Source: Lacibacter sp. H407
GTDB taxonomy: Bacteria; Bacteroidota; Bacteroidia; Chitinophagales; Chitinophagaceae
Direction: 5' to 3'
NCBI RefSeq assembly: GCF_037892605.1
Contig: NZ_JBBKTU010000001.1
Location: forward strand, 4,216,001 to 4,280,000
DNA: 64,000 nucleotides
The notes under the pieces: generated by a model
What the model saw: the letters and a program-made list of their open reading frames with translations, nothing else
The model's database searches: none
What the model was told of the DNA's origin: nothing
Shown here: positions 705 through 28,467 of the stretch, piece by piece
Numbering within the stretch: position 1 is the first letter of the stretch
Layout: each line of letters begins with the position of its first letter
Position numbers and translations under genes: made by a program

Positions 705-1707
705 CCATTGCTTTGATGACGCCATTCTTTGGATCGAGCCAGCTTTTGAAATGATCTTTCACTTCATCAAATTGTACACGATGGGTAATGTAGGTTGCAG
801 GATCAACGAGTTTGTTGCGCATGCACATCATTACATGATCAAAATCTTCTTGTGTGGCATTGCGGCTGCTCATGAGTGTTGCTTCACGTTTGTGAAACTC
901 AGGATGACTTACGATCAACTCTCCTTTCTGTAAACCAACCAACACATATCTTGCGCCATGCGCCATATACAAGAATGCACTGTTGATGGCTTTTTGATTG
1001 CCGGTTGCATCAATTACCACTGTTGGCATATCGCCATTGGTAATTTCTTTTAAACGTTGCAGCACATCTTCGTTTAATGGATTGATGGTATGCTGCACTT
1101 TTAGTTTATCCTTACAGAAATTCAAACGTGTATCATTTACATCCATGGCAATTACCTGTCCGCCTGCAATGCGACCAAACTCCATAATGCCCAAACCAAT
1201 GGGGCCAGCACCAATTACCAATACAAATTCACCTGTACGAACGCCTGCCCTGCGGATGCCGTGTGCACCGATAGCTAAAGGCTCCACCAATGCGAGTTCA
1301 TCAAAACTCATATCGCCGCCATGCAGCAATGCAGAAGTGGGAACAGAAATAAATTCCATCATACCACCATCTACATGCACGCCAAATACATTGATGGCTG
1401 CACAACAGTTAGGTAAACCATTGCGACAGGCAATACATTCGCCGCAATGAAAATATGGGATGAGTGTTACACGCTCTCCTACTTCAAATTCTGCATCGGC
1501 ATCAACCTGTACAATTTCGCAACCCAACTCATGACCGAGTATGCGTGGATAAGCAAAGTAAGGTTGCGTTCCTTCAAATGCATGAAGATCGGTTCCGCAG
1601 ATACCGATGCGTTTTACTTTTAATATTGCACGACCGGGTTGAATTTCGGGTCTTTCTTTTTCTACATATTCAAATGAACCCGGTTGCTGACACACTAATG
1701 CTTTCAT
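694..1707 (-). CDS. Zinc-dependent medium-chain alcohol dehydrogenase (L-galactonate/L-gulonate 5-dehydrogenase-like)
   Basis: This 337-residue protein is a cytosolic NAD(P)-dependent MDR dehydrogenase. The catalytic zinc site is visible as C37 in GICGTD, H59-E60 in LGHELG and E142 in VEPLAIG. The structural zinc Cys cluster is C88, C91, C94 and C101/C102. The Rossmann motif GAGPIGLG lies at 166-173. Its closest recognisable relatives are the sugar-acid or polyol 5-dehydrogenases (RspB/LgnH type). It starts 11 bases after the GH78 gene stops, so the two are almost certainly cotranscribed. In this setting it probably oxidises a sugar acid or deoxy-sugar acid derived from rhamnose, fucose or galacturonate, but the exact substrate cannot be read from sequence. 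Confidence 0.85.
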   Translation of the reverse strand: MKALVCQQPGSFEYVEKERPEIQPGRAILKVKRIGICGTDLHAFEGTQPYFAYPRILGHELGCEIVQVDADAEFEVGERVTLIPYFHCGECIACRNGLPNCCAAINVFGVHVDGGMMEFISVPTSALLHGGDMSFDELALVEPLAIGAHGIRRAGVRTGEFVLVIGAGPIGLGIMEFGRIAGGQVIAMDVNDTRLNFCKDKLKVQHTINPLNEDVLQRLKEITNGDMPTVVIDATGNQKAINSAFLYMAHGARYVLVGLQKGELIVSHPEFHKREATLMSSRNATQEDFDHVMMCMRNKLVDPATYITHRVQFDEVKDHFKSWLDPKNGVIKAMVEI

Positions 1708-1718
1708 AAAATCTTTTA

Positions 1719-10768: not shown

Positions 10769-10851
10769 TTGAATTCTATTAAGCTTCTGTTGTGTCACTC
10801 TCTTGTGCAACAACAATTCTATTCAGCATTTTTCAACCCATCTGACGGAAC

Positions 10852-10886
10852 GCACTCACTACTCACCATTCACTACTCACCTAATC
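10852..10886. repeat. Dispersed repeat family B, copy 1
   Basis: The run is built of degenerate ACTCACC/ATTCACT units and spans the stop codon of the GH28 gene, so the last residues of that protein are read from it. Related runs occur near 20858, 30117, 49970, 61527 and 62310. Confidence 0.5.
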
Positions 10887-12479: not shown

Positions 12480-15131
12480 CTATTCGAATAGCCAATCAAT
12501 ATTTTTATTCTTCGCATCACTCATCAGCATTGCATCATACACAGGAATTATTTGTGCGCCATCAACAAAACCCACCACTAAACAAACTCCTTTCGGCAGT
12601 TTGAGCGTATGTGATCCTGCTTTAAATGTATAACTGTGAATGTTCACAGGTGGCATTCCTTCGATTGCAATAGCATTAGAAATTTTTATTTCTGCCTGGC
12701 CATAATCATCAGCACTGGCGTTGGTTTCCAATTCAGGTGCTTTTGCAAACACTGTATCTGTGGCGAAAGCTGCACGTTGTGTTTTGAAATAGCCCACCAA
12801 TATTTTCACCGGCTTATCCGTGTAGAAATTGATCTCGGTTGCTTGACGCAATTGTTGCTGAAAAGAAAGCTGCACCGCTTTTAATCCTTTTAACTCTGAT
12901 GCCAATTGTTTGATGCGGATGCTTGTATCGCTAAAGAGTATTGCACCTTCATTCAGTACAATAGGAACATGATTAAGTTTTACATCAAGTTGTTGAAGCG
13001 GTTTGCGCTCTTTTACTGTTGATGAAGATGTATTTTTCAGCGAATCGATTTTATACTTAAAGGTTTTTAATTCTGCTTCAAACACTGGTACCATCTCTAC
13101 CCAATGTTTATAAGTTGCATTTACACCACGCATAGGAATTTTGCGTTGCTGGGTTTGCATACTGTTGGCATAGAGATAAGTATCTGCTGTAAATGCTGCC
13201 AGCTCTTTGTAATCGCTTACACTTTTCTCCAACATGGGTACTGCCAGTTCAAGATCAGCTATATTGCCACTGTATTTGTATTTAAGCAATTGCGCTGCGG
13301 CCTGCACTTTACTGCTGAAATGATCAGCCATTGCTTTATAGCAATACATATCATTTACGATACGGTTGAATTCTTCTTTGTTCTTCGTCACTCTTCTTGA
13401 CACTTCCATTATGGCAACCACCGCTTTATTTCCATGTGCCACCACTTCTGATGCAACCTGCGGCGGTGTTTCGCCAATATGCTTGATTCCTTTTTGTTGC
13501 TTATCGGCATAATCAAGAATCATTTCTCCTTCCGGCGCTTCTGCGTCATACAACAGTGTAAACAAACCATAACGAAACGGATTGATGAGTTGTGTCATCA
13601 GCATTCCCAATGTTAATGTTTGACGGTTACCATCAGTAATACCAAAACGACGTAATAATTTCGGAGCGATCTCTCCGCTTTCTTCATATGCTGTTAATAT
13701 TCTTCTTCCATCTGCTTCACTGCAACCAAATTTTGCAGCCATTTGTTTGCTCCAGTAAACGATCTCTTCTTCACGGTTGCGTTTTGCTTTCCATGCATAG
13801 CGACTCCATGCACTGTACCAGATCCAGTCACGTTCAATTTGTAATAAACGTTTGCCTTTTACACTGTCTGCACTGTAAGGCCAGTCCCAATAAGAAGCCT
13901 GCGGATACAAATGCAAACCGTTACCACCCATTACTTCGTGCATACCAATTACACTCTGCTGTATAAAATCGGGAGAGCCATAACGAAACGGCTCAAGGTT
14001 CGCAAGAATATGAACGTTCTCAATCTGCACACTACCGAGTTTGCTTAATGTTTGATGTAACTCAGCCCAGCTTCCTCTTGGCCGTGCATAGGTCAACGCT
14101 TCACCATTGAACTTTGCTTCGGTATATAAATTTTTATAGAGTGGCAGTGAAGCACGCATTACTCCGGGAGCATCTGTATCATGTGCACGCAAAACGATTG
14201 GCGGTTCTTCCGTTTTGTTCAATGCTTTCAAACCATCTTTCACACCCGGAATAATCGTTTGCGTGAACCATTCAATATCATCCTTACCTACGCCTTCCAT
14301 TGCTTCACCCAGACAAACCATTAAACCAACATTGGGATATTTTTCAACAAATGCTGCAATGGACTTGCGTGTATAATCAGCGATCAACGGAATGATGGGT
14401 CGTTCACGTTCCTGCGTTTTGATCTTGTGATGTTCTGCAAATGGTTTAGAGACGATGATATTGTAAAACATTTGTATCACCCAGATGCCACGTTTATCAG
14501 CCTCAGTAGTTAAGAATCGATAGATATCTTCATTCTTTTTAAACGTTGCATCATCTACTTCCACAGCGTATGGATAATCTTTCAGCTTCACCAAAGATGC
14601 AAACGGATGACCGTTCCATAGATACAAGGAATTCATACGATTCGCTACCATCGAATCGAGATACTGTATCCATAACTTTTTGTCGTAGAACCAGGGAAAG
14701 GTTTCCGGCGTGTAAGGATACTCATACACATTTCTGCCAGGCAGGTAATACGGTTTCTGCACACCAATACATGCACCACGCAAAACCATTTCAGGTGCAT
14801 CAGTTAATGAAAAAGTAGCAGGGAATTTCTTTGTTTCTTTTAACTGATCGGCAAACGCTAAACAGCCGTACAAAATTCCGGACTCATCATTACCGGTGAT
14901 GGTTGTTCGATTGTTCTTTGTTTCAATGGTAAATCCTTCTTTCTTTCCACTTGCCTGTTTGCTGAGAACAATGCTGTGTTTTGCGGCATTCAATTTTAAC
15001 TGCGTAATGGTTGCGTTTAACCGCTGTTCTCCAAATTTTGTTCTTGAAGAAGGTTGGTTATTCTCGATCTTCACCTGCGCAGAAAGCACTGAACAAACCA
15101 CTAATGATATGACAAAGAAAATCTTCTTCAT
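12480..15131 (-). CDS. Exported glycosidase-like protein of unassigned family (GH20/GH67-type N-terminal domain)
   Basis: The 883-residue protein has a signal peptide ending SVLSAQ. Residues of about 25-110 resemble the alpha-glucuronidase/hexosaminidase N-terminal fold (SIVLSKQ, EGFTIETKNN, GNDESGILYGCLAFADQL). A probable TIM barrel follows, with RMNSLYLWNGHPF, ANLEPFRYG and LGEAMEG segments rich in acidic residues that could serve catalysis. The C-terminal half is helical, then beta. I cannot place it in a numbered GH family. It starts one base after the pectate lyase stop, so it is translated with pectin-degrading enzymes. An exo-acting uronidase is a reasonable guess from the N-terminal fold and the neighbours, no more. 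Confidence 0.75.
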   Translation of the reverse strand: MKKIFFVISLVVCSVLSAQVKIENNQPSSRTKFGEQRLNATITQLKLNAAKHSIVLSKQASGKKEGFTIETKNNRTTITGNDESGILYGCLAFADQLKETKKFPATFSLTDAPEMVLRGACIGVQKPYYLPGRNVYEYPYTPETFPWFYDKKLWIQYLDSMVANRMNSLYLWNGHPFASLVKLKDYPYAVEVDDATFKKNEDIYRFLTTEADKRGIWVIQMFYNIIVSKPFAEHHKIKTQERERPIIPLIADYTRKSIAAFVEKYPNVGLMVCLGEAMEGVGKDDIEWFTQTIIPGVKDGLKALNKTEEPPIVLRAHDTDAPGVMRASLPLYKNLYTEAKFNGEALTYARPRGSWAELHQTLSKLGSVQIENVHILANLEPFRYGSPDFIQQSVIGMHEVMGGNGLHLYPQASYWDWPYSADSVKGKRLLQIERDWIWYSAWSRYAWKAKRNREEEIVYWSKQMAAKFGCSEADGRRILTAYEESGEIAPKLLRRFGITDGNRQTLTLGMLMTQLINPFRYGLFTLLYDAEAPEGEMILDYADKQQKGIKHIGETPPQVASEVVAHGNKAVVAIMEVSRRVTKNKEEFNRIVNDMYCYKAMADHFSSKVQAAAQLLKYKYSGNIADLELAVPMLEKSVSDYKELAAFTADTYLYANSMQTQQRKIPMRGVNATYKHWVEMVPVFEAELKTFKYKIDSLKNTSSSTVKERKPLQQLDVKLNHVPIVLNEGAILFSDTSIRIKQLASELKGLKAVQLSFQQQLRQATEINFYTDKPVKILVGYFKTQRAAFATDTVFAKAPELETNASADDYGQAEIKISNAIAIEGMPPVNIHSYTFKAGSHTLKLPKGVCLVVGFVDGAQIIPVYDAMLMSDAKNKNIDWLFE

Positions 15132-15132
15132 G

Positions 15133-16524
15133 TTATTTCACTTCCACTAATTCGTTTAAATAAATTTCCAGCATAGTAAACCCGCTTGCATCTTTTTTAT
15201 TACCATCGCTTGCATCGTTCGGGTTCAATCCTTTTTTTGTTTCCCATGCATCAGGCATTCCATCATTGTCTGTATCAACAGGTGCAGGTACCGATTTATA
15301 TTCGGCCCAACCACCAACTGCCAACGGACTATCAATAATACCGGGCTTACCAAATGAACCTTTGCCGCTTGCTGTAGCTGTTCTTGTTTCGTTTACCACA
15401 CGTTCATCTGTTGCATCACGCTTTGGAAAAATAGCGCCAGCATATTTCAACACCTTCTCGTATGATTCTTTAGCAGTTTCAACAGGTAATGCAATGCTTA
15501 CAGGAAACGCTTTATCAGCAATTGCTCCTGAAGGATAACCCTGTGCTTGCAGATCAACACCGTTCTTATTCTTTTTGGTCAATGCTTTATCGCCTTCCAT
15601 GATGTTACCCTCAACAAACCACTGCCCTGTTCCTTTGCTGTTTTCTTTTTGATAAGATGCATTTACAAATTTTAATTCAGCTGCAGTTGCAGGACCGGGT
15701 TTGTAATAATTGTTAACGATGTTCACCTGTGAAACTCCATCTGCAATATTTACTTCGCCACCGTAAGCAGCATTGGCATTACCCCAGTTATAAATAATAT
15801 TATTGCGGTAGTCGACCAATGCAATGGTATCATGTGCACGTGCACCATTGAAGCGTACTGTACGACTGTTAAGATGCGCCAATAAATTATGATGATAGCT
15901 TGCGTATTGTCCACCCCAGACACCACCGTATGAACGATGTCCTTTCTGATGACCTGCTTCATATAAGCCTTCACTTACAATACACCATTGCACGGTAACA
16001 TTTTTTGTATCGTACATCGCTGCGCATTCTTCATTGGCCCAACTGAAACTGCAATGATCGATAATTACATCATGACAGTTCTCCATATCAAAACCATACA
16101 AGCCTGTTTTTAACGTACCACCGGGTCGTGAGCGGATATAACGAATAATGATATTACCATGATTGCCTTTGGAAGAAGCACCATTTAAAATGAGTGATTG
16201 ATTTTTTAAACAGATCCCATCGCCGGGAGCGGTTTGTCCGGCAATAGTGAGATTAGAACGTTTGATCTGAATTTTTGATTGCAGTTCAATAATTCCTGAT
16301 ACATGAAAGATGACTGTCAACGGTTCGCCGGGAAATTGTTCCAATGCCCAGCGGAAACTTCCTTCGCCACTATCGTTCAAATTGGTTACGGCAATTACTT
16401 TACCACCTCTTCCACCTGTTGCATATTTACCGAAACCTTCTGCACCGGGAAAAGCTATTTGTTGTGCTGCTAAAGATTGAGCAAAAAATAAACAGACAAG
16501 TATGATCACTGATTGTTTCTTCAT
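15133..16524 (-). CDS. Exported pectate lyase-like beta-helix protein
   Basis: The 463-residue protein starts with a signal peptide ending SLAAQQ and then AFPGAEGFGKYATGGRGG, a standard opening of PL1-type pectate lyases from Bacteroidota. Parallel beta-helix segments follow (NIIIRYIRSRPGG, DVIIDHCSFSWAN, NSRTVRFNGARAHD). The C-terminal DTDNDGMPDAWE is a calcium-binding thrombospondin type 3/EF-like repeat seen at the end of many such secreted lyases. It would cut homogalacturonan by beta-elimination. It lies 20 bases after the oxidoreductase gene and one base before the next gene. The lyase family is well supported; the exact subfamily is not. Confidence 0.9.
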   Translation of the reverse strand: MKKQSVIILVCLFFAQSLAAQQIAFPGAEGFGKYATGGRGGKVIAVTNLNDSGEGSFRWALEQFPGEPLTVIFHVSGIIELQSKIQIKRSNLTIAGQTAPGDGICLKNQSLILNGASSKGNHGNIIIRYIRSRPGGTLKTGLYGFDMENCHDVIIDHCSFSWANEECAAMYDTKNVTVQWCIVSEGLYEAGHQKGHRSYGGVWGGQYASYHHNLLAHLNSRTVRFNGARAHDTIALVDYRNNIIYNWGNANAAYGGEVNIADGVSQVNIVNNYYKPGPATAAELKFVNASYQKENSKGTGQWFVEGNIMEGDKALTKKNKNGVDLQAQGYPSGAIADKAFPVSIALPVETAKESYEKVLKYAGAIFPKRDATDERVVNETRTATASGKGSFGKPGIIDSPLAVGGWAEYKSVPAPVDTDNDGMPDAWETKKGLNPNDASDGNKKDASGFTMLEIYLNELVEVK

Positions 16525-16544: not shown

Positions 16545-17615
16545 TTAAAACAATTCATTTGGCTTGATGCCGCCTTTCTCACAACTGATATAAGCAGCTT
16601 CTGTGCAAGCCATGGTATGAATGCAATCTTCCACAGCATTGTCAGGTTTCTCAATTTTTCCTGCAGCGGCCAGCATCAGTTGTTCCATGCTGCCTATGAA
16701 AGCATGCGGAAACCAGCTGCCTTCAATTTTCTTTTCCTGCCATTGCGGCTCTATGCCTTCCTCCAAAAACACATATTCAAAATTGTCGGCTTCTCCACGA
16801 GGATAATTGATGAGTGCACCAAAGTTGATGAGCACTGCACCTTTTGTTCCTTCAAACTTTATATAGGATTGTTGTTTTGGTGTTCCGTAATTATGGCAAT
16901 GATTGGTGAGAATGTTTGCTCTTGTCATGTCACCATAATCCATAATGATATTGCTGCGTACCGATGCAAGCGCAGGCATACTCGGATGCTTGGTTGATTT
17001 TGCATACACCGATTTTGGATTACCCAGTATATGACGAACGAGATCGATGTAATGAATGCTGTGATAAAGAATCTCCACTCTTGGTGAAGTCATTAAGAAA
17101 TCCCACAAATGCCAGGGCGTGTACACGTTGACGTTTACTTCAATATCGTTGATCTCACCAAGCAATCCATCACTGATCATTTGCTTCACTTCAAGAATAT
17201 AGGGTGCATAACGCAATTGAAAATTAACAGCAGCATTCAACTTCTTCTCTTTGCAAATCGATAATATCTTTTTTGCTGCATCCAGATCTTCGCCCATCGG
17301 CTTTTGCAATAATACAGCAGAGCCATCAGGTATTTGTTCTAACAAAGGAATCAATGCAGGACCGGGTACGGCAATATCAATGATCGCATTTGCCGGCAAT
17401 TGCTTCAACAGCGCTTCCGGACTTTCAAATACTTTTTTAATACCAAAACGTTCAGCAGTTGTTTTTGCTTTATCCGGATCAATATCACAAATGCCCTGCA
17501 CATGAAAACCACCCAGCATATAAGCAGGCAGGTGTGCAGTATTTACAATCCCGCCGGCGCCAATAATATAAATTGGTAATTGTGCAGAAGCGATATCTCT
17601 TTGATGATTCGTCAT
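16545..17615 (-). CDS. Gfo/Idh/MocA family NAD(P)-dependent oxidoreductase
   Basis: The 356-residue protein has no signal peptide. The Rossmann start YIIGAGGIVNTAHLPAY, the motif LQKPMGED (the Lys-Pro of the family's EKP motif) and HSIHYIDLVRHI (catalytic histidine region) place it in the Gfo/Idh/MocA family. Members oxidise or reduce sugars, inositols or sugar acids in the cytosol. A Thr-Pro-Trp-His run near residue 175 sits in the C-terminal alpha/beta domain. It stands between the rhamnose symporter and the pectate lyase, in the same operon, so a role in sugar or sugar-lactone oxidation is likely. The substrate cannot be told. Confidence 0.88.
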   Translation of the reverse strand: MTNHQRDIASAQLPIYIIGAGGIVNTAHLPAYMLGGFHVQGICDIDPDKAKTTAERFGIKKVFESPEALLKQLPANAIIDIAVPGPALIPLLEQIPDGSAVLLQKPMGEDLDAAKKILSICKEKKLNAAVNFQLRYAPYILEVKQMISDGLLGEINDIEVNVNVYTPWHLWDFLMTSPRVEILYHSIHYIDLVRHILGNPKSVYAKSTKHPSMPALASVRSNIIMDYGDMTRANILTNHCHNYGTPKQQSYIKFEGTKGAVLINFGALINYPRGEADNFEYVFLEEGIEPQWQEKKIEGSWFPHAFIGSMEQLMLAAAGKIEKPDNAVEDCIHTMACTEAAYISCEKGGIKPNELF

Positions 17616-17704: not shown

Positions 17705-18802
17705 TCATTTCAATTTGTCAGTCTGAACTTTCAGGTTCGTAAGCCCCTCCTTTGGAGGGGTTTGGGGAGGCTCCTCTCCCAGTTTGTTTCCTTGCGTTAG
17801 TAGTAAAACAGCAGTGATCAAAATAATAATAGCAACGGCCAATAAGCGAATAGTTTTGCCACTGCTGTTTTTCCATTCTTTCAACATTAAACCTGTTACT
17901 GCACTTAACAACACCAGCAAGATCATGTGAATGGCCCAACTACTGAACTCATATTTGCCCATACGCACATGACCAAGACCATAAAAGAAAAATTGTCCGT
18001 ACCATAACATACCTGTTAAGATCGACATGAGATAATTCATTCCCAATCCATTCTCGCCTGTTGTTTTATACTCGCCAAATGTTTTTTCTTTTCGGTGCAG
18101 ATACAAGCAGTATAACAAGGTACTGATGAATGCACCTGAATTAGAAAAAATATAAATCACATTTCCCTGGAAATTTCCTGCGCCATATTTAGCAGCCACG
18201 TCAGCAATTGGCTGTCCTTGATTCAGAGAGAAGCCATATAATGCTGATAACACACCTGCCAATAAACAAAGTGGCAATCCTTTCGCCAATGAGAAAGCAG
18301 ATTCTGTCTTCAACTGCTTTTCAATGTCTTTTTCTTTACTTCTGCCTGCCAAACCACAAACTGCAATACCAATTGCTCCCATGGTAACACCGCTGATGAG
18401 ATAACCTGCACCTGTTCCGGAAAGAATAGTTCCTAACGTTCCTGCAACCATTGGTGGCAACAACGTACCCAACACACAACTGATACCAACAGAGATTGCA
18501 TAGGTCAATGAAAAACCAACATAGCGAATGGCAATACCAAATGCAGTTCCACCAACACCATAAGCAATACCCAAAACGAATGAACGTTGCATGGCAGATG
18601 CAGGTGCTTCTTTTATTACGCTAACGATTTCAGGAATGGTGATATACGCAACGAGTAATGGCAACAATAACCAACACACTGCTGCCTGTGCCAGCCAATA
18701 AGTTTGCCAGCTCCATCCTTTTACTTTTCGTTGCGGTGTATAACAGAGCGAAGCGCTTGAAGCGCCGACAGCATGAAACAAAACTCCGTTAATTACTTCC
18801 AT
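17705..18802 (-). CDS. rhaT: RhaT-type L-rhamnose/proton symporter
   Basis: The 365-residue protein begins VLFHAVGASSASLCYTPQR followed by KVKGWSWQTYW, the hallmark start of the RhaT family (DMT superfamily). About ten hydrophobic segments follow. It should import L-rhamnose or a related 6-deoxy sugar across the inner membrane. It lies 17 bases behind the lactonase gene in the operon and fits the GH78 rhamnosidase. The family is usually about 345 residues; the extra C-terminal tail after the last membrane segment (GEEPPQTPPKEG and onward) is encoded by a dispersed repeat and is probably functionless. Substrate specificity is inferred from family and context. Confidence 0.87.
   Translation of the reverse strand: MEVINGVLFHAVGASSASLCYTPQRKVKGWSWQTYWLAQAAVCWLLLPLLVAYITIPEIVSVIKEAPASAMQRSFVLGIAYGVGGTAFGIAIRYVGFSLTYAISVGISCVLGTLLPPMVAGTLGTILSGTGAGYLISGVTMGAIGIAVCGLAGRSKEKDIEKQLKTESAFSLAKGLPLCLLAGVLSALYGFSLNQGQPIADVAAKYGAGNFQGNVIYIFSNSGAFISTLLYCLYLHRKEKTFGEYKTTGENGLGMNYLMSILTGMLWYGQFFFYGLGHVRMGKYEFSSWAIHMILLVLLSAVTGLMLKEWKNSSGKTIRLLAVAIIILITAVLLLTQGNKLGEEPPQTPPKEGLTNLKVQTDKLK
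17744..17774. repeat. Dispersed repeat family A, copy 2, inside the rhaT 3' end
   Basis: The palindrome CCCCTCCTTTGGAGGGG followed by GGGGAGG lies inside the coding sequence and translates as a Pro-rich tail containing TPPKEG. Other copies sit at 17619, 40225, 51532 and 61487. Confidence 0.65.
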
Positions 18803-18819: not shown

Positions 18820-19668
18820 TTAAAAGGAATAAAAGTTTGCAGCATTGGAATAAAATATTTTATCTGCTGCATTATCATCAACCAAATCGTGAATTACTTG
18901 CTTGTAGTTTTTCCAGGTGTTGCTGTAAGAATCGGCCAATAATGAAACGGGCCAATCGCCACCCATGAAACATCGGTCGGTTCCAAACTGCTCTATTGCA
19001 AAGCCAACATAAGGTTTAATATCATCGTCTGTCCATTGATCGCCTTTTTGTGCAGTTAATCCAAGTCCTGAAATTTTTGCATAAAAATTTTTATGCTTTG
19101 CTGCTTCTTTCATCAACTCACCCCATCTTCCAAATTTTTCTTTTGTTGCAATAGGTGGCTGATTCAAATGATCGAACACCATTCTTAACTCCGGAACTTT
19201 TGCTGCCACCTGTAATGCAGTTTCAATATGCTCAGGGAAAATACCTACCACATCGTAAGGAATATTGTGATCGGCTAATATCTGCAGACTATTGATCACT
19301 TCAGGTTGCAACAACCACTTCGGATCACGTTCATCATGTATCAAATGACGAACTCCTTTGAAATAATTTTCTTTTCCGTATTTCTTTTGCAGTGCTTTTA
19401 ATGTAGCATCGGGATTGATCAACGGTAACCATCCAACAATACCGGCGATCCAATCTGTATTCACCGCCACATGCAACATCCAATCTGTATCTTCAAAATT
19501 ATTGGCAGCCTGTACAAGAATACCTTTTGTAATTCCGCTGGTATTTCGATCATGTTCCAGCTCTTCAATACTATACGTACGATTGAGTATAGATGTGTTG
19601 CCTTCTAACCATACATATTCTGCACGGTTAAAATCCCAAATATGTACATGTGTATCAGCAAGCCTCAT
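18820..19668 (-). CDS. Amidohydrolase-family sugar lactonase (L-fucono-/L-rhamnono-lactonase, COG3618 type)
   Basis: The ATG at 19668 is chosen; an in-frame TTG at 19677 is less likely. The 282-residue cytosolic protein begins LADTHVHIWDF, with the metal-binding HxH at H7/H9. It has FDHLNQP near the middle and MGGDWPVS near the end, where the aspartate is the expected catalytic base. This is the 2-pyrone-4,6-dicarboxylate lactonase-like branch that hydrolyses L-fuconolactone or L-rhamnonolactone in the non-phosphorylated pathways. It begins 13 bases after the CoA-transferase stop and is followed by the rhamnose symporter. An oxidising dehydrogenase would make its substrate; candidates are in the same operon. 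Confidence 0.88.
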   Translation of the reverse strand: MRLADTHVHIWDFNRAEYVWLEGNTSILNRTYSIEELEHDRNTSGITKGILVQAANNFEDTDWMLHVAVNTDWIAGIVGWLPLINPDATLKALQKKYGKENYFKGVRHLIHDERDPKWLLQPEVINSLQILADHNIPYDVVGIFPEHIETALQVAAKVPELRMVFDHLNQPPIATKEKFGRWGELMKEAAKHKNFYAKISGLGLTAQKGDQWTDDDIKPYVGFAIEQFGTDRCFMGGDWPVSLLADSYSNTWKNYKQVIHDLVDDNAADKIFYSNAANFYSF

Positions 19669-19681
19669 TCTTTTCAAATGA

Positions 19682-20851
19682 TCATTTAATAACGGTCTGC
19701 AATTGTTCTGTTATGCCGAATCGATAGTCAATTTCCTTATTGTGCTCACCCAACAATGGTGCACCTTTGCCCGCTGCCAGTATTTCACCATCCACTTTTA
19801 TCGGACAGCGTGTAGTGGTTACCGATAGTCCGTTACTTGTTTTCACCGTTACTTCCATTTCGAGTGAACGGTAACCTTCCTGCTTCACCAACCCATCGTA
19901 ATCCATTACCGCCGCACACCAAATATCTGCCTTCTCCAAAATACTGAGCCACTCTGCTGATGGTCTTGTTGTTAAATGACCTGCCAGTATCAATTTAATT
20001 TCATCACGTTTTGCAAACCAATCGTTGCTGTTGATGAAATCTTTCAACGGCTCACATTCCAGCAGCTTTGCCAGCGTTGGAATATTGGTCATTGCTAATG
20101 CAATGTAATCATCATTTGTTTTATAAATACCATACGGCGCTGCTATGTATGCATGGGCACTATTTACTGCTCCACGCACCGGTAATTGTCGTCCATCGTT
20201 GTAATAACAGGTTAACACTTCGAACTGAAAATCCAGGATACTTTCCAGCATACTCACCTGCACCAATGCACCTTCACCATTTACAGCTTTTTGGTATAAT
20301 GCTGCTAATATTCCTTGCGCAATATGCGTGCCTGCCATGATATCCACCACGGCAACACCCATTGGCGTGGGACTTTCATCAATATTATTGCTGAGCCAGG
20401 TTAAGCCTGAAACAGATTGCAGTAACAGATCCTGTCCCGGCAGATCTTTCCACGGACCTTCTACACCATAACCACTGATCTCTGCATACACCACATCAGG
20501 CTTGATCAGTTTTACAGATTCATAATCCAAACCAATACGTTCCATCACACCGGGGCGAAAATTATGCATCACCACATCGGCTTTTGCAATCAGTTGTTTT
20601 ACTTTTTCGAGATCGTTGGGGTTCTTTAAATCAGCCGCATAGCTTTGTTTGTTGCGGTTGATGGCATGAAAAATGGTTGACTCACCTTCGATCATCACAT
20701 CGCTTACGTACAACTCACGACAAATATCGCCGCTGCCCGGTCGTTCGATCTTGATCACCTGTGCACCCATATCTGCCAATCGCAAAGCCGCAGAAGGCCC
20801 CGACAAGAACTGGCTGAAATCGATCACTAATATGTCTTCTAAAAGTTTCAT
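19682..20851 (-). CDS. Class III (CaiB/BaiF) CoA-transferase, paralogue 2
   Basis: The 389-residue protein has the class III fold signatures: SGPSAALRLADMGAQVIKIE, FHAINRNKQS, DVVMHNFRPG and AEISGYG. The catalytic aspartate that forms the acyl anhydride is D141 in LPGQDLLLQS. These enzymes move CoA between carboxylic acids in the cytosol. It is a close paralogue of the gene just upstream (20922-22067), with near-identical motifs along the whole length. The gap between the two is 70 bases and filled by a dispersed repeat. It could form a homodimer or pair with its neighbour. No acyl substrate can be assigned; a sugar-derived hydroxy or keto acid is possible. Confidence 0.9.
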   Translation of the reverse strand: MKLLEDILVIDFSQFLSGPSAALRLADMGAQVIKIERPGSGDICRELYVSDVMIEGESTIFHAINRNKQSYAADLKNPNDLEKVKQLIAKADVVMHNFRPGVMERIGLDYESVKLIKPDVVYAEISGYGVEGPWKDLPGQDLLLQSVSGLTWLSNNIDESPTPMGVAVVDIMAGTHIAQGILAALYQKAVNGEGALVQVSMLESILDFQFEVLTCYYNDGRQLPVRGAVNSAHAYIAAPYGIYKTNDDYIALAMTNIPTLAKLLECEPLKDFINSNDWFAKRDEIKLILAGHLTTRPSAEWLSILEKADIWCAAVMDYDGLVKQEGYRSLEMEVTVKTSNGLSVTTTRCPIKVDGEILAAGKGAPLLGEHNKEIDYRFGITEQLQTVIK

Positions 20852-20857
20852 TGTTTA

Positions 20858-20942
20858 ATTGTGAATTGTGAATGGTCAATGGTGAATATCAGTTCATAAC
20901 ATCACCCGTAACACATAACACTTAACTTATAACTTCTAACTC
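20858..20942. repeat. Dispersed repeat family B, copy 2
   Basis: The stretch contains GTGAATTGTGAATGG units followed by AACACATAACACTTAAC-like units. It fills the gap between the two CoA-transferase genes and runs into the upstream gene, where it encodes the final residues ELEVIS. It is too degenerate for a CRISPR array. Confidence 0.55.
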
Positions 20943-22067
20943 TTTCCTTATCTTCTCGTTCTGCTCACCTAGTTGAGGCGCTGCTTTATCAGCAGTTAAC
21001 AATTGTCCGTTGAAGCGTATCGGGCACCTTGTTGTAACAATTGTTTTACCTCCTGCATGAATAGTTTGTTCCATTTGCAATGCATTGTATGCAGGATGGT
21101 CTGTCATCTCATCCCAATTCAATACTTCCATGGCCCACAGTCCGGCTTCCTGCAATGCAGCCAACCAGTAAGCAGTTGTTTCTGTTTGCAGATGCTCAAC
21201 CAACACTGTTTTTATTTCATCACGCAATGCGAACGCATCTTCTTTCGAAAAATATTTCAATGCACCGCAATGAATTGTATCGGCCAACACATGAATATCG
21301 ATCATCGCTAATGCGATATAGCTGTCTTTTGTTTGATAAATTCCATACGGCGCACTTAACAATGGCTGACCGTTTGCAACCTTGCTTCGTTGCGGTTGTT
21401 CTTTATTGGCAAAATAGGTAGTGAGTAATTCAAATTGAAAATCGAGTAATGTTTCCATCAAACTCACTTCGATCAACGCACCCTTTCCGGTTTTTGAACG
21501 ACGGATCAATCCACCTAATATTCCTTGTACCAATTGAGAGCCTGCAAGAATATCAGCAATCGAAATACCAAATGGTACAGGACCGTTTGTTCCGTTGCCT
21601 GTGGTATATGCTAAGCCTGTTATTGATTGTAATAGCAGATCTTGTCCGGGTTTGTTTTTCCACGGACCTTTCTTTCCGTAACCTGAAATTTCTGCATAGA
21701 TCAATCGTGGATTGATCTGTTGAACTGTGTTGTAATCAAGTCCGTTCTTTCCCATTACATCGGGACGGAAATTATGGATCAACACATCGCTCTTTGCAAT
21801 GAGTTTTTTGATAATAGAAATGTCTTCAGGATTTTTCAGATCAGCAGTAAAACTTTCTTTATTACGATTAATGGTATGAAACAACAGCGAGTTATCATCA
21901 ACCCACAAATCTTTGATGGCTAATTTTCTTCCAGCATCACCTGTTTTTGGTCGCTCAATTTTTATAACTCGTGCACCAAGATCGGCCAAACGCAATGCCG
22001 CCGACGGTCCGGATAAATATTGGCTGAACTCCAGCACCACAACTCCATTTAATGGCAATCCACTCAT
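20922..22067 (-). CDS. Class III (CaiB/BaiF) CoA-transferase, paralogue 1
   Basis: The 381-residue protein carries SGPSAALRLADLGARVIKIE, FHTINRNKES, VLIHNFRPDVM and the active-site aspartate D143 in KPGQDLLLQS. It is paralogous to 19682-20851; the two probably arose by tandem duplication. The start codon overlaps the stop of the solute-binding-protein gene (shared ATGA at 22067-22064), which points to translational coupling. Paired class III transferases that act as a heteromer are known from succinyl-CoA:malate CoA-transferase of the 3-hydroxypropionate cycle, so a two-subunit enzyme is a fair alternative to two separate enzymes. The last residues lie in a dispersed repeat. Confidence 0.9.
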   Translation of the reverse strand: MSGLPLNGVVVLEFSQYLSGPSAALRLADLGARVIKIERPKTGDAGRKLAIKDLWVDDNSLLFHTINRNKESFTADLKNPEDISIIKKLIAKSDVLIHNFRPDVMGKNGLDYNTVQQINPRLIYAEISGYGKKGPWKNKPGQDLLLQSITGLAYTTGNGTNGPVPFGISIADILAGSQLVQGILGGLIRRSKTGKGALIEVSLMETLLDFQFELLTTYFANKEQPQRSKVANGQPLLSAPYGIYQTKDSYIALAMIDIHVLADTIHCGALKYFSKEDAFALRDEIKTVLVEHLQTETTAYWLAALQEAGLWAMEVLNWDEMTDHPAYNALQMEQTIHAGGKTIVTTRCPIRFNGQLLTADKAAPQLGEQNEKIRKELEVIS

Positions 22068-23215
22068 GCTGTAACTACAGTTTGTTTTGAAATACTTTGC
22101 TGATATAGTTTATTCATTTCCTGTAATGCTTTTACCGGATCACCATCATACTCCAGGCAATCCTGCAGCGGATCGCCTGCATGATCCTGGAAATGCAGGT
22201 AACCATTGTAACGTGGACGCATATAACCATTGTCCATGACAGGTAATACCTGCGTAAAAAAGTAATTGGTTAGATGATTAGCTGTTGGGTCTGTCCATGC
22301 ATTGCGATGACCGGGTTGGCCACCATGTTGCACATACATTGTTTGCTGACATTCACCCGATGTAACCATCGCTGCAAAATCAACTGCCACTTCTTTATGT
22401 TTACTGAAAGCAGAAACAGAAATTCCTGTTCCTCCAATAGTTGTTCTTAATTTCTTTCCATTGAATGAAACAACATCGGCATAGTGTAACAAATGTTGTG
22501 CATAGCCTTTGCGAGCATAGTTGGAATAACCATATGCAAACGGACAATAGAGGTAATCGTTTGTTGTACTCATTAACTCTGCCACTGCAATAGGATTACG
22601 GCTGAACATTTTTTTATCCACCACGCTATACAACTGCTTCATTGTTTCAATTGCCTTGATGCCTGTTGCTTCGTCAATTACTTCTTCTTCATTTTGAAAA
22701 GGCTCTGTGCCATTTGCAATGCAGAATGTATAAAAGTTCATCAACAGATCAATAGGTATTGCAGGCACGGCAACTTTTCCTTCTTTTGCCAAATCCAATA
22801 CATCGTTCCATGTTTGCGGTACGTTGGTAAGTAAATCTTTACGATAGCTGGCTGAAGGTGTTGCTGCATCAATCGCTAAAGCCCATTGCTTATTATTATA
22901 GTTATAGCTGATATGCGATAGCCCAACAGAGTTAGTTTGCTGATCCCTTAAATAATCAGCAGATAAATATTCATTCAAAGGCAACACACAATTGGTTGCA
23001 TCTGCACAACCCACCCACGGATGATCGATAATGAGCAGATCATATTCTTTTGTCAATTCTTCAATAGGGAAATCAGCAAACTCCTGGAGTGTACGTTTCT
23101 TCCAACGTATTTCCACATTAGGATGTAATTCAGAATAACGTTGTGAAACTGCAAGCAAAGGAGTTATTCCACGGCTATGCCCCCACGTTATACCATTCAA
23201 TACAATCTTTTGCAT
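22064..23215 (-). CDS. Family 1 solute-binding-protein homologue lacking a signal peptide
   Basis: The 383-residue sequence resembles ABC-type carbohydrate-binding proteins: SQRYSELHPNVEIRW near the N-terminus, TWNDVLDLAKEGKVAVPAIP in the middle, and HKEVAVDFAAMVTSGECQQ, then GHRNAWTDP toward the end. These are normally exported. Here the first residues (MQKIVLNGITWGHS) are already the first beta strand of the mature fold, with no hydrophobic segment, no lipobox and no possible longer start, because the hydratase stop is only two bases upstream. No ABC permease or ATPase gene is near. The protein therefore looks cytosolic. A sensor, carrier or enzyme-associated binding role is possible; none is established. 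Confidence 0.8.
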   Translation of the reverse strand: MQKIVLNGITWGHSRGITPLLAVSQRYSELHPNVEIRWKKRTLQEFADFPIEELTKEYDLLIIDHPWVGCADATNCVLPLNEYLSADYLRDQQTNSVGLSHISYNYNNKQWALAIDAATPSASYRKDLLTNVPQTWNDVLDLAKEGKVAVPAIPIDLLMNFYTFCIANGTEPFQNEEEVIDEATGIKAIETMKQLYSVVDKKMFSRNPIAVAELMSTTNDYLYCPFAYGYSNYARKGYAQHLLHYADVVSFNGKKLRTTIGGTGISVSAFSKHKEVAVDFAAMVTSGECQQTMYVQHGGQPGHRNAWTDPTANHLTNYFFTQVLPVMDNGYMRPRYNGYLHFQDHAGDPLQDCLEYDGDPVKALQEMNKLYQQSISKQTVVTA

Positions 23216-23217
23216 GC

Positions 23218-23661
23218 TTAACTGTTTGCTTTTTTAACCATGAGAATATGTTCGCACAGCATCACTAATTCGTTTTGCTGATTGAAACATTCCACCAATT
23301 CTGTTACTAACCCGTATTCAGGTTTCTTATGATCTTTCAACTCTTTTATGGTTACTGTTACTTTGATCGTGTCGTTAATAAACACTGGTTTAATAAAACG
23401 CAGGCGTTCATAACCATAGGTCATGCTTACTTCGTTTACAAAATCAGCGGTGAGGCCAATGGCCACGGTGAAGATGAGTGTGCCATGTGCAATGCGTTTT
23501 TTAAACGGCTGGCCTTTACACCACTCTTCATCCATATGATGGGGGAAAAAATCACCTGACTGACCGGCATGGATCACAATATCCGTTTCGGTAATGGTTC
23601 TGCCTTTTGTTTGGCGAACATCATTGAGTTTAAATTCCTCGAAATACTTCTGTATAAACAT
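23218..23661 (-). CDS. MaoC-type hot-dog hydratase/dehydratase
   Basis: The ATG at 23661 is preferred over the in-frame TTG at 23673, giving 147 residues. The hydratase-2 motif reads SGDFFPHH, with the catalytic pair D37 and H42 kept while the usual Asn is Phe. [16 protein letters not shown] and [13 protein letters not shown] are typical of the single-domain MaoC fold. Such proteins add water to enoyl-CoA thioesters or remove it. It is the first gene of the operon, two bases ahead of the solute-binding-protein gene. The link to two CoA-transferases suggests a short CoA-thioester pathway in which the transferase loads an acid and this enzyme (de)hydrates it. Substrate unknown. Confidence 0.88.
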
Positions 23662-23684
23662 AGCTGGCTGCAATCAGTTTTTAT

Positions 23685-23698: not shown

Positions 23699-23854
23699 TT
23701 CAAAAATGGCAAAATCACCCGTTTAATCCGAAGTTCAAGGTATAACAGCCTGTCGGGGTGTTCAATGGAAGGTTTTACTGATTTGATGGATTATTTTCCC
23801 ACAGAGAGAATTTGAGAGAAATATAAAAGCTCCTTGTCAAAAGAGTTTAACAAG

Positions 23855-23928
23855 TCGGGATGACTGGATTCGAACCAGCGACCTCTTCGTCCCGAACGAA
23901 GCACGCTACCGGACTGCGCTACATCCCG
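23855..23928 (-). tRNA. tRNA-Pro (anticodon CGG)
   Basis: The 74-base sequence folds as a standard tRNA. The acceptor stem pairs CGGGATG with CATCCCG and leaves A as discriminator. The anticodon arm is CTTCG-TTCGGGA-CGAAG with anticodon CGG, and the T arm has the loop TTCGAAT. CCA is not encoded. It lies 14 bases downstream of the phosphodiester glycosidase stop and upstream of the operon, all on the minus strand. Confidence 0.95.
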
Positions 23929-24902: not shown

Positions 24903-25832
24903 CTATGCAATAAAATTTGCTTTCTCTTCTTCCCATTTGGCTCGGCCATAACCGGGAACCACATGCTTTTCACTATGATAACTTGAACGTACCAACGGAC
25001 CGCTCTCGACATAATCCAAACCAATGCTGTAACCAATTTCACGGTATTCTTTAAACTCGTCGGGATGAACAAAACGTTGTACAGCTAAATGTTTTTTGGT
25101 TGGTTGCAGATATTGACCGATCGTTACCACATCCACGCCGTTATTCTTCAAATCATTCAACGTCTGGATCACTTCTTCTTTTGTTTCACCCAAACCTAAC
25201 ATGATGCCACTCTTCACCCGCATTCCGTTTTCTTTCAAGTAACGTAGCACATCCATACTACGCCAGTATTTCGCCTGTATACGTACTTGTCGTGTCAAAC
25301 GTTCAACGGTTTCAATGTTATGTGATACAACTTCAGGATGTGCTTCTACTACCCGTTGTACATTTTCCATCTGTCCTTTAAAATCAGGAATCAGTGTTTC
25401 CAATGTTGTATCAGGATTCAATGCTTTTACTGCACGGATGGTATTGTACCAGATGATACTGCCACCGTCTTTGATCTCATCACGGTCAACAGAAGTGAGT
25501 ACTGCGTGCTTCACCTTCATTAAATGAATGGCTTCGGCTACACGTTGCGGTTCGTCCCAATCAACCGGATCGGGCTTACCGGTAGCAACTGCACAAAAGC
25601 CACAGCTTCTGGTGCAGGTATTACCTAATATCATAAAGGTGGCCGTTCCTTCACCCCAGCACTCGCCCATATTCGGGCAATTGCCGCTTTCGCAAATGGT
25701 ATGAAGTTTATGAGTATCTACGAGATTACGTACGTTCTTGTAAGATTCACCGATAGGCAAGCGTACCCGCAGCCAATCCGGTTTTTTTGGTTTCTGCTCT
25801 GCGGCAGCTTCATTCACTACAATTTCCTGCAT
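24903..25832 (-). CDS. lipA: Lipoyl synthase
   Basis: The 309-residue radical-SAM enzyme inserts sulfur into protein-bound octanoyl groups to make the lipoyl cofactor of 2-oxoacid dehydrogenases. The auxiliary cluster motif is [12 protein letters not shown] (CX4CX5C), the radical-SAM motif is CTRSCGFC (CX3CX2C), and the C-terminal RSSYHS supplies the serine ligand. GATATFMI-like and NIETVERL segments are also as expected. Length is normal for the family. The gene reads into the phosphodiester glycosidase gene. Confidence 0.98.
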
Positions 25833-26795: not shown

Positions 26796-27200
26796 ATGAC
26801 TTCTTCCATTGTTTATAAAGGTGAATTGCGAACAGAAGCTGTTCACCTCCACAGCCAATCAACCATTGAAACAGATGCTCCGCTCGATAACCAGGGAAAA
26901 GCTGAACGTTTTTCTCCTTCCGACCTTGTTGCCACGGCTTTGGGCAGTTGTATGCTCACCATTATGGGTATTAAAGCAAGAGATATGCAGCTTGACCTCA
27001 CCGGTGTAAAAATCGATATTCAGAAACACATGATATCAGACCCACGCCGTATTGGTGGAGTGGATGTAATTTTTTATTTCCCTGACCATATAAAGTTGGA
27101 TGAAAAACAAAAAACAATTTTAAAAAATGCCGCACTGGCCTGCCCTGTTGCAAAAAGTATTCACCCGGATATTGAACAGCGTGTAGAGTTTAACTGGTAA
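26796..27200 (+). CDS. OsmC family protein
   Basis: The 134-residue cytosolic protein keeps the two redox-active cysteines of the OsmC/Ohr fold, C52 in ALGSCMLTIMG and C116 in AALACPVAKS. The SPSDLVATALG loop is typical. Members reduce organic hydroperoxides or act as thiol-dependent peroxidases. Its last 11 bases overlap, in convergent orientation, the end of the DUF2851 gene. Confidence 0.93.
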   Translation: MTSSIVYKGELRTEAVHLHSQSTIETDAPLDNQGKAERFSPSDLVATALGSCMLTIMGIKARDMQLDLTGVKIDIQKHMISDPRRIGGVDVIFYFPDHIKLDEKQKTILKNAALACPVAKSIHPDIEQRVEFNW

Positions 27201-28467
27201 TTGTTTTTTTTAAAAGACTGTTCCCGATGGCACAATGCAAACATCGCTTTGCATCGCAATAATTTTTCTTGAGATACAGTAATGCCTGCGAATCAAAAGC
27301 TGATTGATGCGTTACCCCAATGGATTCCCATTGTTGTGTAATACTGTTTTGTTCTTTTTTCATTTGCTGCAGCCATTGTACCGCTTTTTCTTTTGTCGGC
27401 TCATCTTTGTGTTGAACCGCATAAACAAAAAGAACAGGAATAATACAGTTGATCAGTAAATTATCGACCATTGTTTTGCCTAATTGCTTTTTTCGAAAAG
27501 CCGACGGTTCATTGAGCAGATAATGATAATGCCAATAATCATTTGCGGTAACAGCCAACATCGTTCGGATGGCATCAATCGTTTTTGCTTCCAGCACTTT
27601 TGAAAACAAATGACTTGATTGATGAACTAACATCGCCAACTGTGCCAAACGAATGGTTGGAAAATTAGACGGGCGCATCCGCAAAAAATGCAGATGATGG
27701 CTCACCGGTTTCAGTTCATATTTTTTCTGCAGAAACCGATATTCTTTTTGCAACATCACCGGATAATCTTCTGTAAATTTTTCATTGAGCAAACCTGCCT
27801 GACCCATTAACATTGCTTCAACCTGGTGAATTTGTTTTTTATGTTTGGCCAACAATGTAACAGGAATGGTTTGTGCCACTGCTTCAAACGCATCGGCATT
27901 TAATGGTGTTCCAAAACTACGTGCAAGAAATTGCCAAAAAGTTTCTTCCCAATGTTGTTTTGTTTTGTTCAGAATGCCGGTAATATGTTCGCTTTTTTGT
28001 TGCAACCGTTCAGCGATCATCCGTTCTTTCCAACTGCTCCACACAATTTCATTTACATCCTTTGCCTGTTTTGCACAGGGAATGAATGTGTCCTGCAACA
28101 TAAATTGTTCATAGCGTTGCAGCAGTGATGTTGAAATACGATCTTTCAATTCAAGTACCGGTATACCATTCACTTTCTTTTGATCATGTTCGTACACCAC
28201 ATGCAGAATAATGTTTTGATAATGCGGATCGTTTGTGTGGCCATGTTTTGCCCAGTCACTTGTTTTCAAATGCAATTCCACATTTCCAACCCAGGTAACA
28301 TTGTTGACATTGATGGTTGCATGAAGAAAATCGGGGCCTTGATTGCTGTTGAGCAAACCTTGTGTTTTTATGGTAACAGGTTCGTGCGAAACAGTTTGCA
28401 GGTTTTCCCGGTTGAAGTACAGGTGTTGCCAAATGAATTGTAACAGGTGCTCGTTCATAACAGGCAT
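27190..28467 (-). CDS. DUF2851 family protein
   Basis: The 425-residue protein begins MNEHLLQFIWQHLYFNRENL followed by the DUF2851 hallmark LLNSNQGPDFLHATI and VGNVELHLKTSDW. It ends with a four-cysteine cluster, CDAKRCLHCAIG, a probable metal site. The family is common in Bacteroidota and has no known function; an endonuclease-like fold has been suggested by the GPDF...E.H pattern, which is an inference. No signal peptide. A second ATG nine bases downstream is an equally possible start. Confidence 0.9.
   Translation of the reverse strand: MPVMNEHLLQFIWQHLYFNRENLQTVSHEPVTIKTQGLLNSNQGPDFLHATINVNNVTWVGNVELHLKTSDWAKHGHTNDPHYQNIILHVVYEHDQKKVNGIPVLELKDRISTSLLQRYEQFMLQDTFIPCAKQAKDVNEIVWSSWKERMIAERLQQKSEHITGILNKTKQHWEETFWQFLARSFGTPLNADAFEAVAQTIPVTLLAKHKKQIHQVEAMLMGQAGLLNEKFTEDYPVMLQKEYRFLQKKYELKPVSHHLHFLRMRPSNFPTIRLAQLAMLVHQSSHLFSKVLEAKTIDAIRTMLAVTANDYWHYHYLLNEPSAFRKKQLGKTMVDNLLINCIIPVLFVYAVQHKDEPTKEKAVQWLQQMKKEQNSITQQWESIGVTHQSAFDSQALLYLKKNYCDAKRCLHCAIGNSLLKKTITS

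Follow-up and report, generated by a model that had tools for sequence, protein, structure and literature searches.

A four-gene set at the head of a sugar gene run

Lacibacter sp. H407, a member of the Bacteroidota, carries at the head of a run of carbohydrate genes a compact set encoding a MaoC-type hydratase, a solute-binding protein (SBP) homologue designated SBP1, and two class III CoA-transferases (CoATs). The set lies in the stretch analysed here, 64,000 nucleotides of contig NZ_JBBKTU010000001.1 (positions 4,216,001 to 4,280,000; hereafter, the window), and is transcribed from the minus strand in the order MaoC, SBP1, CoA-transferase A and CoA-transferase B:

23218-23661, minus strand: MaoC-type (R-specific) enoyl-CoA hydratase, first of the gene run (PF01575, 83.1 bits; dyad D37/H42)
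22064-23215, minus strand: SBP1, predicted signal-less, cytosolic protein of the SBP_bac_1 fold (Pfam SBP_bac_1, 51.6 bits)
20922-22067, minus strand: class III CoA-transferase A (CoA_transf_3, 320.8 bits; catalytic Asp143)
19682-20851, minus strand: class III CoA-transferase B (CoA_transf_3, 320.0 bits; catalytic Asp141)

The MaoC and SBP1 genes are 2 bases apart, SBP1 overlaps the gene for CoA-transferase A by 4 bases, and 70 bases separate the two transferase genes. These positions and gaps, reported in an earlier note on this DNA, proved exact to the base, and the active-site residues that it named (D143 in transferase A, D141 in transferase B and D37/H42 in MaoC) are correct. The MaoC gene starts with the ATG at 23661, with a TTG at 23673 as a possible alternative. 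Both transferases exceed the curated CoA_transf_3 cut-off of 23.3 bits, and theirs are the only two PF02515 (class III CoA-transferase) genes in the 4.87-Mb H407 genome; SBP1 is the only PF01547 (SBP_bac_1) protein of that genome. By SBP1, the closest named relative is Lacibacter cauensis (88% identity).

The set belongs to a module that is conserved and apparently undescribed. Hundreds of species genomes carry it, annotated piecemeal as 'extracellular solute-binding protein', 'CoA transferase' and 'MaoC', and the first of these labels is probably wrong about location. No description of the module was found in the open-access full-text literature, to which the search was confined, subscription papers and preprints lying outside it.

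Composition and distribution of the module

SBP1 relatives were sought by a pattern scan of the GTDB species-genome collection, which found at least 584. We mapped 81 loci (labelled by L-numbers), comprising the window and the best 80 of these matches, a set in which near relatives are over-represented. Several of the loci are at contig ends; 65 have at least 4 kb on either side and are called wide-flank loci. Genes within 6.5 kb of SBP1 are described as near it. The module consists of SBP1, one or two class III CoA-transferases, a hydratase of either the MaoC or the crotonase (ECH) type and, usually, an oxidoreductase of the Gfo/Idh/MocA family (Gfo), to which most loci add a COG3618 lactonase or a second binding-protein homologue that is also signal-less (SBP2).

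Two CoA-transferases are near SBP1 in 67 of the 81 loci and one in 8 (L059, one of the latter, is at a contig end), making 75 loci in all. MaoC is near SBP1 in 69 loci, an ECH in 6 and both in one, either hydratase being present in 74/81. These frequencies do not show a set from which one member is usually absent, a finding that the earlier note said would refute its reading. A Gfo gene lies within 6.5 kb of SBP1 in 65/81 loci and belongs to the module, and the four genes that the earlier note took for the whole set are in this respect incomplete. Of the 65 wide-flank loci, 56 combine a CoA-transferase with MaoC, Gfo and a gene for COG3618 or SBP2. A transferase directly adjoins SBP1 in 71/81 loci, and in the open-reading-frame set the exact 4-base overlap recurs in 40 of 71 same-strand SBP1-CoAT neighbour pairs. 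Pairing of the transferases, which had been given prominence, holds for the window genome and the 67 two-copy loci but fails as a defining trait, given the 8 single-copy loci and the 12 mapped alphaproteobacterial plasmid loci, each with one transferase per module (L014 has a second in an adjoining ECH cluster). The single copy of Bacillota resembles CoA-transferase B slightly more than A, and B is also the best-matching copy in most alphaproteobacterial loci. Chance neighbourhood was ruled out by the genome-unique CoA-transferases and SBP_bac_1 protein together with the recurrence across the 81 loci.

No CoA-transferase was found within 6.5 kb of SBP1 in L037, L040, L042, L043, L046 and L051, four of which are flanked by under 4 kb on one side; L040 and L046 lack one across the whole locus stretch examined, as distinct from the rest of the genome. 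In L040 (8836-12793) and L046 (6816-10773), as also in L042 and L043, an SBP1 about 62% identical to that of the window lies between enolase-superfamily and symporter-cluster genes. PhyH-like, UxuA-like and RraA-like genes follow in L040 and L046, a second context for the putatively cytosolic binding protein.

Within the window's family, SBP1 occurs in 22 of 117 genomes at 23 places, with both CoA-transferases adjoining at 21 of these and MaoC inside the short flank at 18; in a sample of the phylum, 16 of 296 genomes have the module SBP1. Hosts include Bacteroidota, Bacillota (Paenibacillus, Ammoniphilus and Alicyclobacillus) and Gammaproteobacteria (Microbulbifer and Marinimicrobium), and the module is plasmid-borne in Alphaproteobacteria and Streptomyces. 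The plasmid sample comprised 16 regions of 202 plasmid records, picked for diversity or annotation (L017 is unannotated); L021, seemingly an ordinary ATP-binding cassette (ABC) transporter locus, was excluded from the maps. A marine form, SBP1-CoAT-CoAT with an ECH and an aldehyde dehydrogenase, is found in L066, L069, L076, L085 and L087, and L066, L076 and L087 each have a gene belonging to one cluster, the L087 member of which has an Agarase_CBM domain. The aldehyde dehydrogenase of L066 is nearest PRK10090, just under its cut-off (478.9 against 500).

CoA-transferases and two kinds of hydratase

Residues were counted in alignments of the proteins from the mapped loci, window included. The catalytic Asp is kept in 160/160 CoA-transferases. 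Among 85 MaoC proteins the Asp is kept in all and the His in 79, with Val in place of His in the remaining six (L047, L052, L055, L072, L096 and L129). These Val-for-His proteins are second copies (L047, 7243-7749; L072, 12285-12803; L096, 12353-12886; likewise in L052, L055 and L129) and may be non-catalytic partners. Both catalytic Glu residues are present in 12/12 crotonases in an alignment read by eye. No MaoC is present in 9 of the 12 ECH loci; L014, L072 and L127 hold both, in L014 and L072 as two adjoining clusters. On the SBP1 tree, which was made by a quick method, has several long branches and carries hand-set labels for L014, L015, L016, L072, L128 and L129, the crotonase label changes 6 times, at least 4 of these changes being forced by well-supported branches. 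MaoC and crotonase have unrelated folds that share enoyl-CoA hydratase activity and little else, and their alternation in one setting thus supports hydration of an acyl-CoA. The close coupling of SBP1 and CoA-transferase genes, the kept catalytic residues and the use of two hydratase folds in one setting are evident at the level of sequence, and the CoA chemistry that they suggest is probably real. The CoA-transferase and SBP1 genes of Ammoniphilus flank a gene for an AMP-binding, acyl-CoA-ligase-like protein, and a member of the same similarity cluster is found in the Alicyclobacillus locus.

The module transferases are like known class III enzymes (the CaiB/BaiF family, with Frc and the succinate-glutarate and mesaconate transferases) in family, length and catalytic Asp, but differ in lying far below the equivalog cut-offs, in their near-constant neighbour, a binding-protein homologue predicted to be cytosolic, and in their setting in a sugar operon. 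Against the named NCBIfam equivalogs (SUGCT, mesaconate, Frc, YfdE and CaiB), the best scores of the window copies, 197.8 of 750 and 212.8 of 522 bits, fall short in every case. The MaoC proteins belong to the same hot-dog family as R-specific hydratases such as the C-terminal domain of PaaZ and RipB/Ich, and share their Asp/His dyad. Known MaoC hydratases have Asn between the dyad Asp and His, whereas the module copies mostly have Phe (69/85) and are replaced by crotonases in some lineages.

The 3-hydroxypropionate cycle combines paired class III transferases, SmtAB, with MaoC hydration, and the window set resembles it in having both. It differs in that no citramalyl- or malyl-CoA-lyase-type match was seen among the scanned genes of the window run, and the window transferases reach only 185.9 and 148.2 of 700 bits against the succinyl-CoA:mesaconate model.

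SBP1 is predicted to be a cytosolic binding-protein homologue

At the level of sequence the window SBP1 is signal-less, and several features predict a cytosolic protein. Its open frame of 389 amino acids leaves 6 spare codons between the upstream stop and the 383-residue protein, and thus no room for a signal peptide. An AlphaFold2 model (pLDDT 93.8, from a 46-row alignment) places the first strand at residues 4-11, and the highest 12-residue mean hydrophobicity at the N-terminus is 0.54, compared with 1.99-2.44 in five true ABC binding proteins taken from neighbouring operons. Open frame, first strand and polar N-terminus agree with the cytosolic location that the earlier note had proposed. 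Across the mapped loci, the earliest possible start lies no more than 15 residues before the match in 79 of 96 SBP1 matches, and the upstream frame stays below a signal-like hydrophobicity of 1.8 in 91/96. In the close Flavobacterium loci L060 and L061 (locus 9881-9998), a hydrophobic stretch in frame upstream of SBP1, absent from others, probably lies before the true start.

The model has the two-lobed SBP fold, and Foldseek matches it to the sugar-binding proteins of ABC importers, with TM-scores of 0.81-0.84 at about 15% identity for 6dtq and 7qhv (MalE3 and SmoF); hhalign gave a weak alignment with Escherichia coli MalE (probability 29%). Unlike importer binding proteins of this fold, SBP1 adjoins a CoA-transferase, has no predicted signal peptide and has no permease or ATPase nearby. 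The three BPD_transp_1 (PF00528) permease genes of the window genome all lie more than 500 kb from SBP1, and no permease was found among the scanned members of the window gene run. Signal-less and in this genomic setting, SBP1 of the window genome is no part of a transporter.

Forty-three columns are invariant across 13 SBP1 proteins, the 12 others being 30-69% identical to that of the window. The charged residues among them are H13, R15, D64, H65, D116, R333 and R335, of which the first five lie in or just past strands of the model. Binding proteins carry their ligand contacts in or just after strands, and charged invariant residues at such sites make an anionic ligand, for example a sugar acid, a natural inference. 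Median identity to the window protein across L056-L101 is 50.5% for SBP1, 52.9 and 58.0% for the CoA-transferases, 59.4% for MaoC and 48.6% for Gfo, and by this measure SBP1 appears to evolve about as slowly as the enzymes of the module. No fusion of SBP1 with a CoA-transferase was seen among the open-frame lengths listed, and long frames in L014 and L016 were rejected as fusions, being other-frame readings of GC-rich DNA.

SBP2, the COG3618 enzyme and the role of SBP1

Near SBP1, a COG3618 gene on the same strand is found in 28/81 loci, SBP2 in 36/81 and neither in 17/81; the two occur together on one strand in 0/81 (Fisher 3e-10), SBP2 occupying the slot that COG3618 holds in the other clade. 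The L063 member scores 96 bits as an SBP_bac_1 protein, which places SBP2 clearly in that family, and no upstream hydrophobic stretch was found in 38 SBP2 matches (maximum 0.93). Its 25-27% similarity to the true ABC binding proteins of alphaproteobacterial clusters may reflect mere membership of a large family.

We rank a role for SBP1 as a subunit of the CoA-transferase above one as an enzyme, and the latter above one as a sensor. SBP1 might instead be an enzyme in its own right that performs a lyase, dehydratase or hydrolase step on a sugar acid or its CoA ester, with SBP2 as a second enzyme in the place of the lactonase; we judge this somewhat unlikely. The binding-protein fold has turned catalyst in Thi5-type and MqnA/MqnD-type proteins, and the 43 invariant columns with their seven charged residues, the enzyme-like rate of change, the few other proteins in the smallest operons (SBP1-CoAT-CoAT-ECH-aldehyde dehydrogenase, for instance) and the mutually exclusive use of the lactonase slot by SBP2 would all suit a catalyst. 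Among the best 50 of 1844 PDB matches in the fold search, however, there is no SBP-fold enzyme, only sugar-binding proteins or constructs resembling maltose-binding-protein fusions; a link to a single enzyme, the CoA-transferase, and not to a range of partners befits a subunit just as well; and the exchange of COG3618 and SBP2 amounts to only 2 changes on the SBP1 tree.

A binding-protein fold without transport partners would also suit a cytosolic sensor of the pathway sugar or acid that switches the CoA-transferase or a regulator. We regard this as very improbable, because DNA-binding regulators are often already there (IclR within 6.5 kb in 9/65 wide-flank loci; IclR or LacI in 9 of 11 annotated alphaproteobacterial regions) and because the 4-base overlap with the CoA-transferase gene and the enzyme-like conservation suggest a stoichiometric working part.

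Sugar context and candidate substrate

Downstream of the four genes, the window gene run continues with sugar genes; its 5' edge is marked by a tRNA gene:

18820-19677, minus strand: COG3618-type amidohydrolase, probable sugar lactonase (TTG start; first ATG at 19668)
17705-18802, minus strand: RhaT-family sugar/proton symporter (PF06379, 194 bits; under the NCBIfam RhaT cut-offs)
16545-17615, minus strand: Gfo/Idh/MocA oxidoreductase, probable sugar dehydrogenase, usually part of the module
15133-16524, minus strand: PelZ-like protein (116 bits, far under the cut-off of 840)
12480-15131, minus strand: alpha-D-galacturonidase (NF049878, 1450.5 bits, exceeding the cut-off of 1300)
10877-12424, minus strand: glycoside hydrolase of family GH28 (Pfam scan)
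7976-10816, minus strand: GH95
4468-8001, minus strand: GH2 with a malectin domain
1719-4460, minus strand: GH78 alpha-L-rhamnosidase
694-1707, minus strand: member of the Zn-dependent alcohol dehydrogenase family, at the end of the run
23854-23928, minus strand: tRNA-Pro(cgg), upstream of the run and outside the module

The carbohydrate surroundings described in the earlier note are thus real, from the COG3618, RhaT and Gfo genes to the four glycoside hydrolases and the alpha-D-galacturonidase, and the tie to sugar genes extends beyond the window, so that the other genomic finding by which the earlier note would have been refuted, a set mostly away from carbohydrate genes, is not made either. 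Listed glycosidase families occur somewhere in 40 of the 65 wide-flank loci (GH2 in 20, GH78 in 17, alpha-galacturonidase in 12, GH106-type in 12, GH28 in 9 and GH95 in 6), and a RhaT or FucP-like transporter is within 6.5 kb in 49/65 (RhaT in 22, FucP-like in 31). A few of the FucP-like matches are divergent (32-36% identity); the one representative scanned exceeds the TIGR00885 cut-off (379.5 against 280.4 bits) and falls under that of PRK10133. In Alphaproteobacteria, a rhamnose mutarotase and ABC sugar importers accompany the module. The pectin context proposed for the set stands for the window genome but not in general, since three of the five marine ECH-type loci have the agarase-type cluster gene and others lie by importers of the ABC or the tripartite ATP-independent periplasmic (TRAP) type.

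The reading of the earlier note, a CoA-dependent route for an acid made from plant cell-wall sugar, is thus supported in part, the set being tied to sugar genes; galacturonate and rhamnose are poor candidates for an obligatory substrate in the window genome. The marker for rhamnulose-1-phosphate aldolase/alcohol dehydrogenase (RhaEW) is over its cut-off in 56 of the 117 family genomes and UxaC is present in 82/117, in each case including all 22 with SBP1; the co-occurrence of RhaEW with SBP1 (Fisher p 6e-9) is confounded by ancestry and genome size. Both occur in the window genome outside the locus, so that neither rhamnose nor galacturonate need depend on the module there, and replacement by the module of the canonical rhamnose route or of galacturonate catabolism was rejected on these grounds. 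The rhaA model TIGR01748 matches only 1/117 family genomes and is hence useless as a marker in this family. FucI is present in 9/117 and was not found in the window genome.

Our best guess is that the sugar is a 6-deoxy-L-hexose or a near relative, of the L-fucose or L-galactose type. This type fits better given the GH95 gene in the run and the window COG3618 protein, whose sole NCBIfam match is L-fucono-1,5-lactonase (NF052480), below the cut-off at 143 of 400 bits; the L129 COG3618 protein scores 104.1 of 400 bits against the same model, again short of it. An L-fuconate dehydratase gene lies beside L016 and L129, a UxaA-type gene is present in L130 (alphaproteobacterial), and the fumarylacetoacetate hydrolase-family (FAH) protein of L128 is nearest 2,4-didehydro-3-deoxy-L-rhamnonate hydrolase (429 against 500 bits). 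Entry at the level of the sugar acid is suggested by L127 and L131, where the 25 kb examined includes TRAP importers but lacks Gfo. In a fold search, the TRAP binding protein of L131 was closest to 4ovt and 4o8m, which are probably L-fuconate- and L-galactonate-bound structures and carry little weight; searches with the L127 TRAP, L129 ABC and L019 ribose-type proteins gave no clear ligand.

Those same TRAP transporters of L127 and L131 would equally suit an ordinary organic acid, a C4-C6 di- or hydroxyacid or the non-sugar substituent of a polysaccharide, with the sugar genes as mere neighbours. The best scores of the CoA-transferases, which are to succinate-glutarate, mesaconate and oxalate enzymes, and the RraA-cluster gene that follows in L072 (the L040 member of the cluster was scanned) point the same way. 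We consider such a substrate distinctly unlikely, as Gfo, the lactonase, RhaT or FucP, rhamnose mutarotase or sugar importers accompany the module across phyla.

Apiose is a plant cell-wall sugar in whose breakdown a Gfo-type dehydrogenase family is used, and the module shares this family with the D-apiose (Oia) pathway. An OiaX-like RuBisCO-like protein, an OiaK-like kinase and an Asp/Glu-racemase-family protein are encoded beside the module in L053 (16682-20006), L058, L062, L063, L074, L077, L091 and L098. With OiaX-like and OiaK-like genes in 7 of the 65 wide-flank loci and in L062, in both Bacteroidota and Bacillota, one can picture a branched-sugar branch in which an apionate-like acid, formed by Gfo and the lactonase, is rearranged in the CoA steps before OiaK/OiaX-like enzymes complete the route. 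This proposal seems far-fetched, since the scanned L053 proteins fall under the apiose-pathway cut-offs (OiaX-like, 513.6 against 700; OiaK-like, 406 against 700) and Oia-like genes are not near most modules, that of the window included.

A proposed CoA-thioester branch of sugar catabolism

The anatomy of the loci supports the involvement of CoA esters in sugar catabolism. The account that we favour, and hold tentatively, is that the module encodes a CoA-thioester branch of oxidative sugar catabolism in which SBP1 serves as the cytosolic substrate-binding subunit of the CoA-transferase. In this scheme, the sugar would enter through RhaT (through FucP, ABC or TRAP transporters in other loci), be oxidised by the Gfo/Idh/MocA enzyme and, as a lactone, be opened by the COG3618 enzyme. 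The sugar acid so formed would receive CoA through the class III CoA-transferase, after which water would be removed or added at C2-C3 of the acyl-CoA by MaoC (by a crotonase in other lineages). Release of the product acid could come about by transfer of its CoA to the next substrate, and CoA would then cycle. SBP1 would be a former binding protein of an ABC importer, now a cytosolic subunit that holds the sugar acid, or the CoA ester of that acid, in its cleft. What we infer here comprises every substrate, the sequence in which the steps follow, the cycling of CoA and a physical contact between SBP1 and the CoA-transferase. A wider form of the proposal, that aldonates are catabolised as CoA thioesters across the bacteria by a complex of a class III CoA-transferase and a cytosolic SBP1 that is catalytic or presents the substrate (joined in one clade by SBP2 in a like role), is possible but on balance doubtful.

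Several observations weigh against these proposals. In Rhizobium sp. Q54 (L127), MaoC and ECH lie in one cluster, so they are not always alternatives. CoA-transferase, MaoC and Gfo all fall under every NCBIfam equivalog cut-off, and no substrate can therefore be read from them. An earlier start could add a hydrophobic stretch to SBP1 in 5 of the 96 matches (L060, L061, L063, L068 and L093). In L040, L042, L043 and L046, SBP1 lies beside an enolase-superfamily gene with no CoA-transferase in the stretch examined, and the distant copies of L125 and L126 (36-39% identity, from the sample of the window's family) also lack the transferase. With only 2 changes on the tree, the alternation of COG3618 and SBP2 is mainly a difference between clades and weak evidence that they are isofunctional. 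As to the sugar, GH78 and GH106-type rhamnosidases outnumber GH95 near the module, leaning towards rhamnose over fucose, and FucI is present in 4 of the 22 module-bearing family genomes. Finally, alphaproteobacterial loci hold, together with the module, a seemingly complete oxidative fucose/rhamnose route (lactonase, dehydratase, short-chain dehydrogenase/reductase (SDR) and FAH); since this route seems complete without CoA steps, those steps may serve something else.

With the non-phosphorylative L-fucose/L-rhamnose route, the module shares the COG3618-type lactonase and the sugar dehydrogenase family, and some loci contain later enzymes as well; profile scans of the window gene run turned up neither SDR nor FAH and no dehydratase belonging to that route. 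Steps of oxidative fucose and pentose routes are described in PMC5507952 and PMC6336799, from whose main texts CoA-transferase and MaoC terms are absent, and the fitness-based survey PMC9007349 has no mention of MaoC or rhamnose and one, unrelated, of a CoA-transferase.

If the favoured proposal is true, CoA esters offer a path for the breakdown of sugar acids, and the binding proteins of importers have found new work in the cytosol, as subunits or as enzymes; on the wider, aldonate form, such proteins would have been recruited at least 2 times into one catabolic enzyme system.

Neighbouring genes

Beside the Flavobacterium module of L061, a GH141-type protein (1164-3671) has a C-terminal rhamnose-mutarotase (rhaM) domain. 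In the window, a radical SAM protein with a lipoyl-synthase N-terminal domain and a DUF2851 protein are encoded beyond the tRNA (24903-25832 and 27190-28467); with upstream genes of this housekeeping-like or uncharacterised kind, the run of sugar genes apparently stops at the tRNA.

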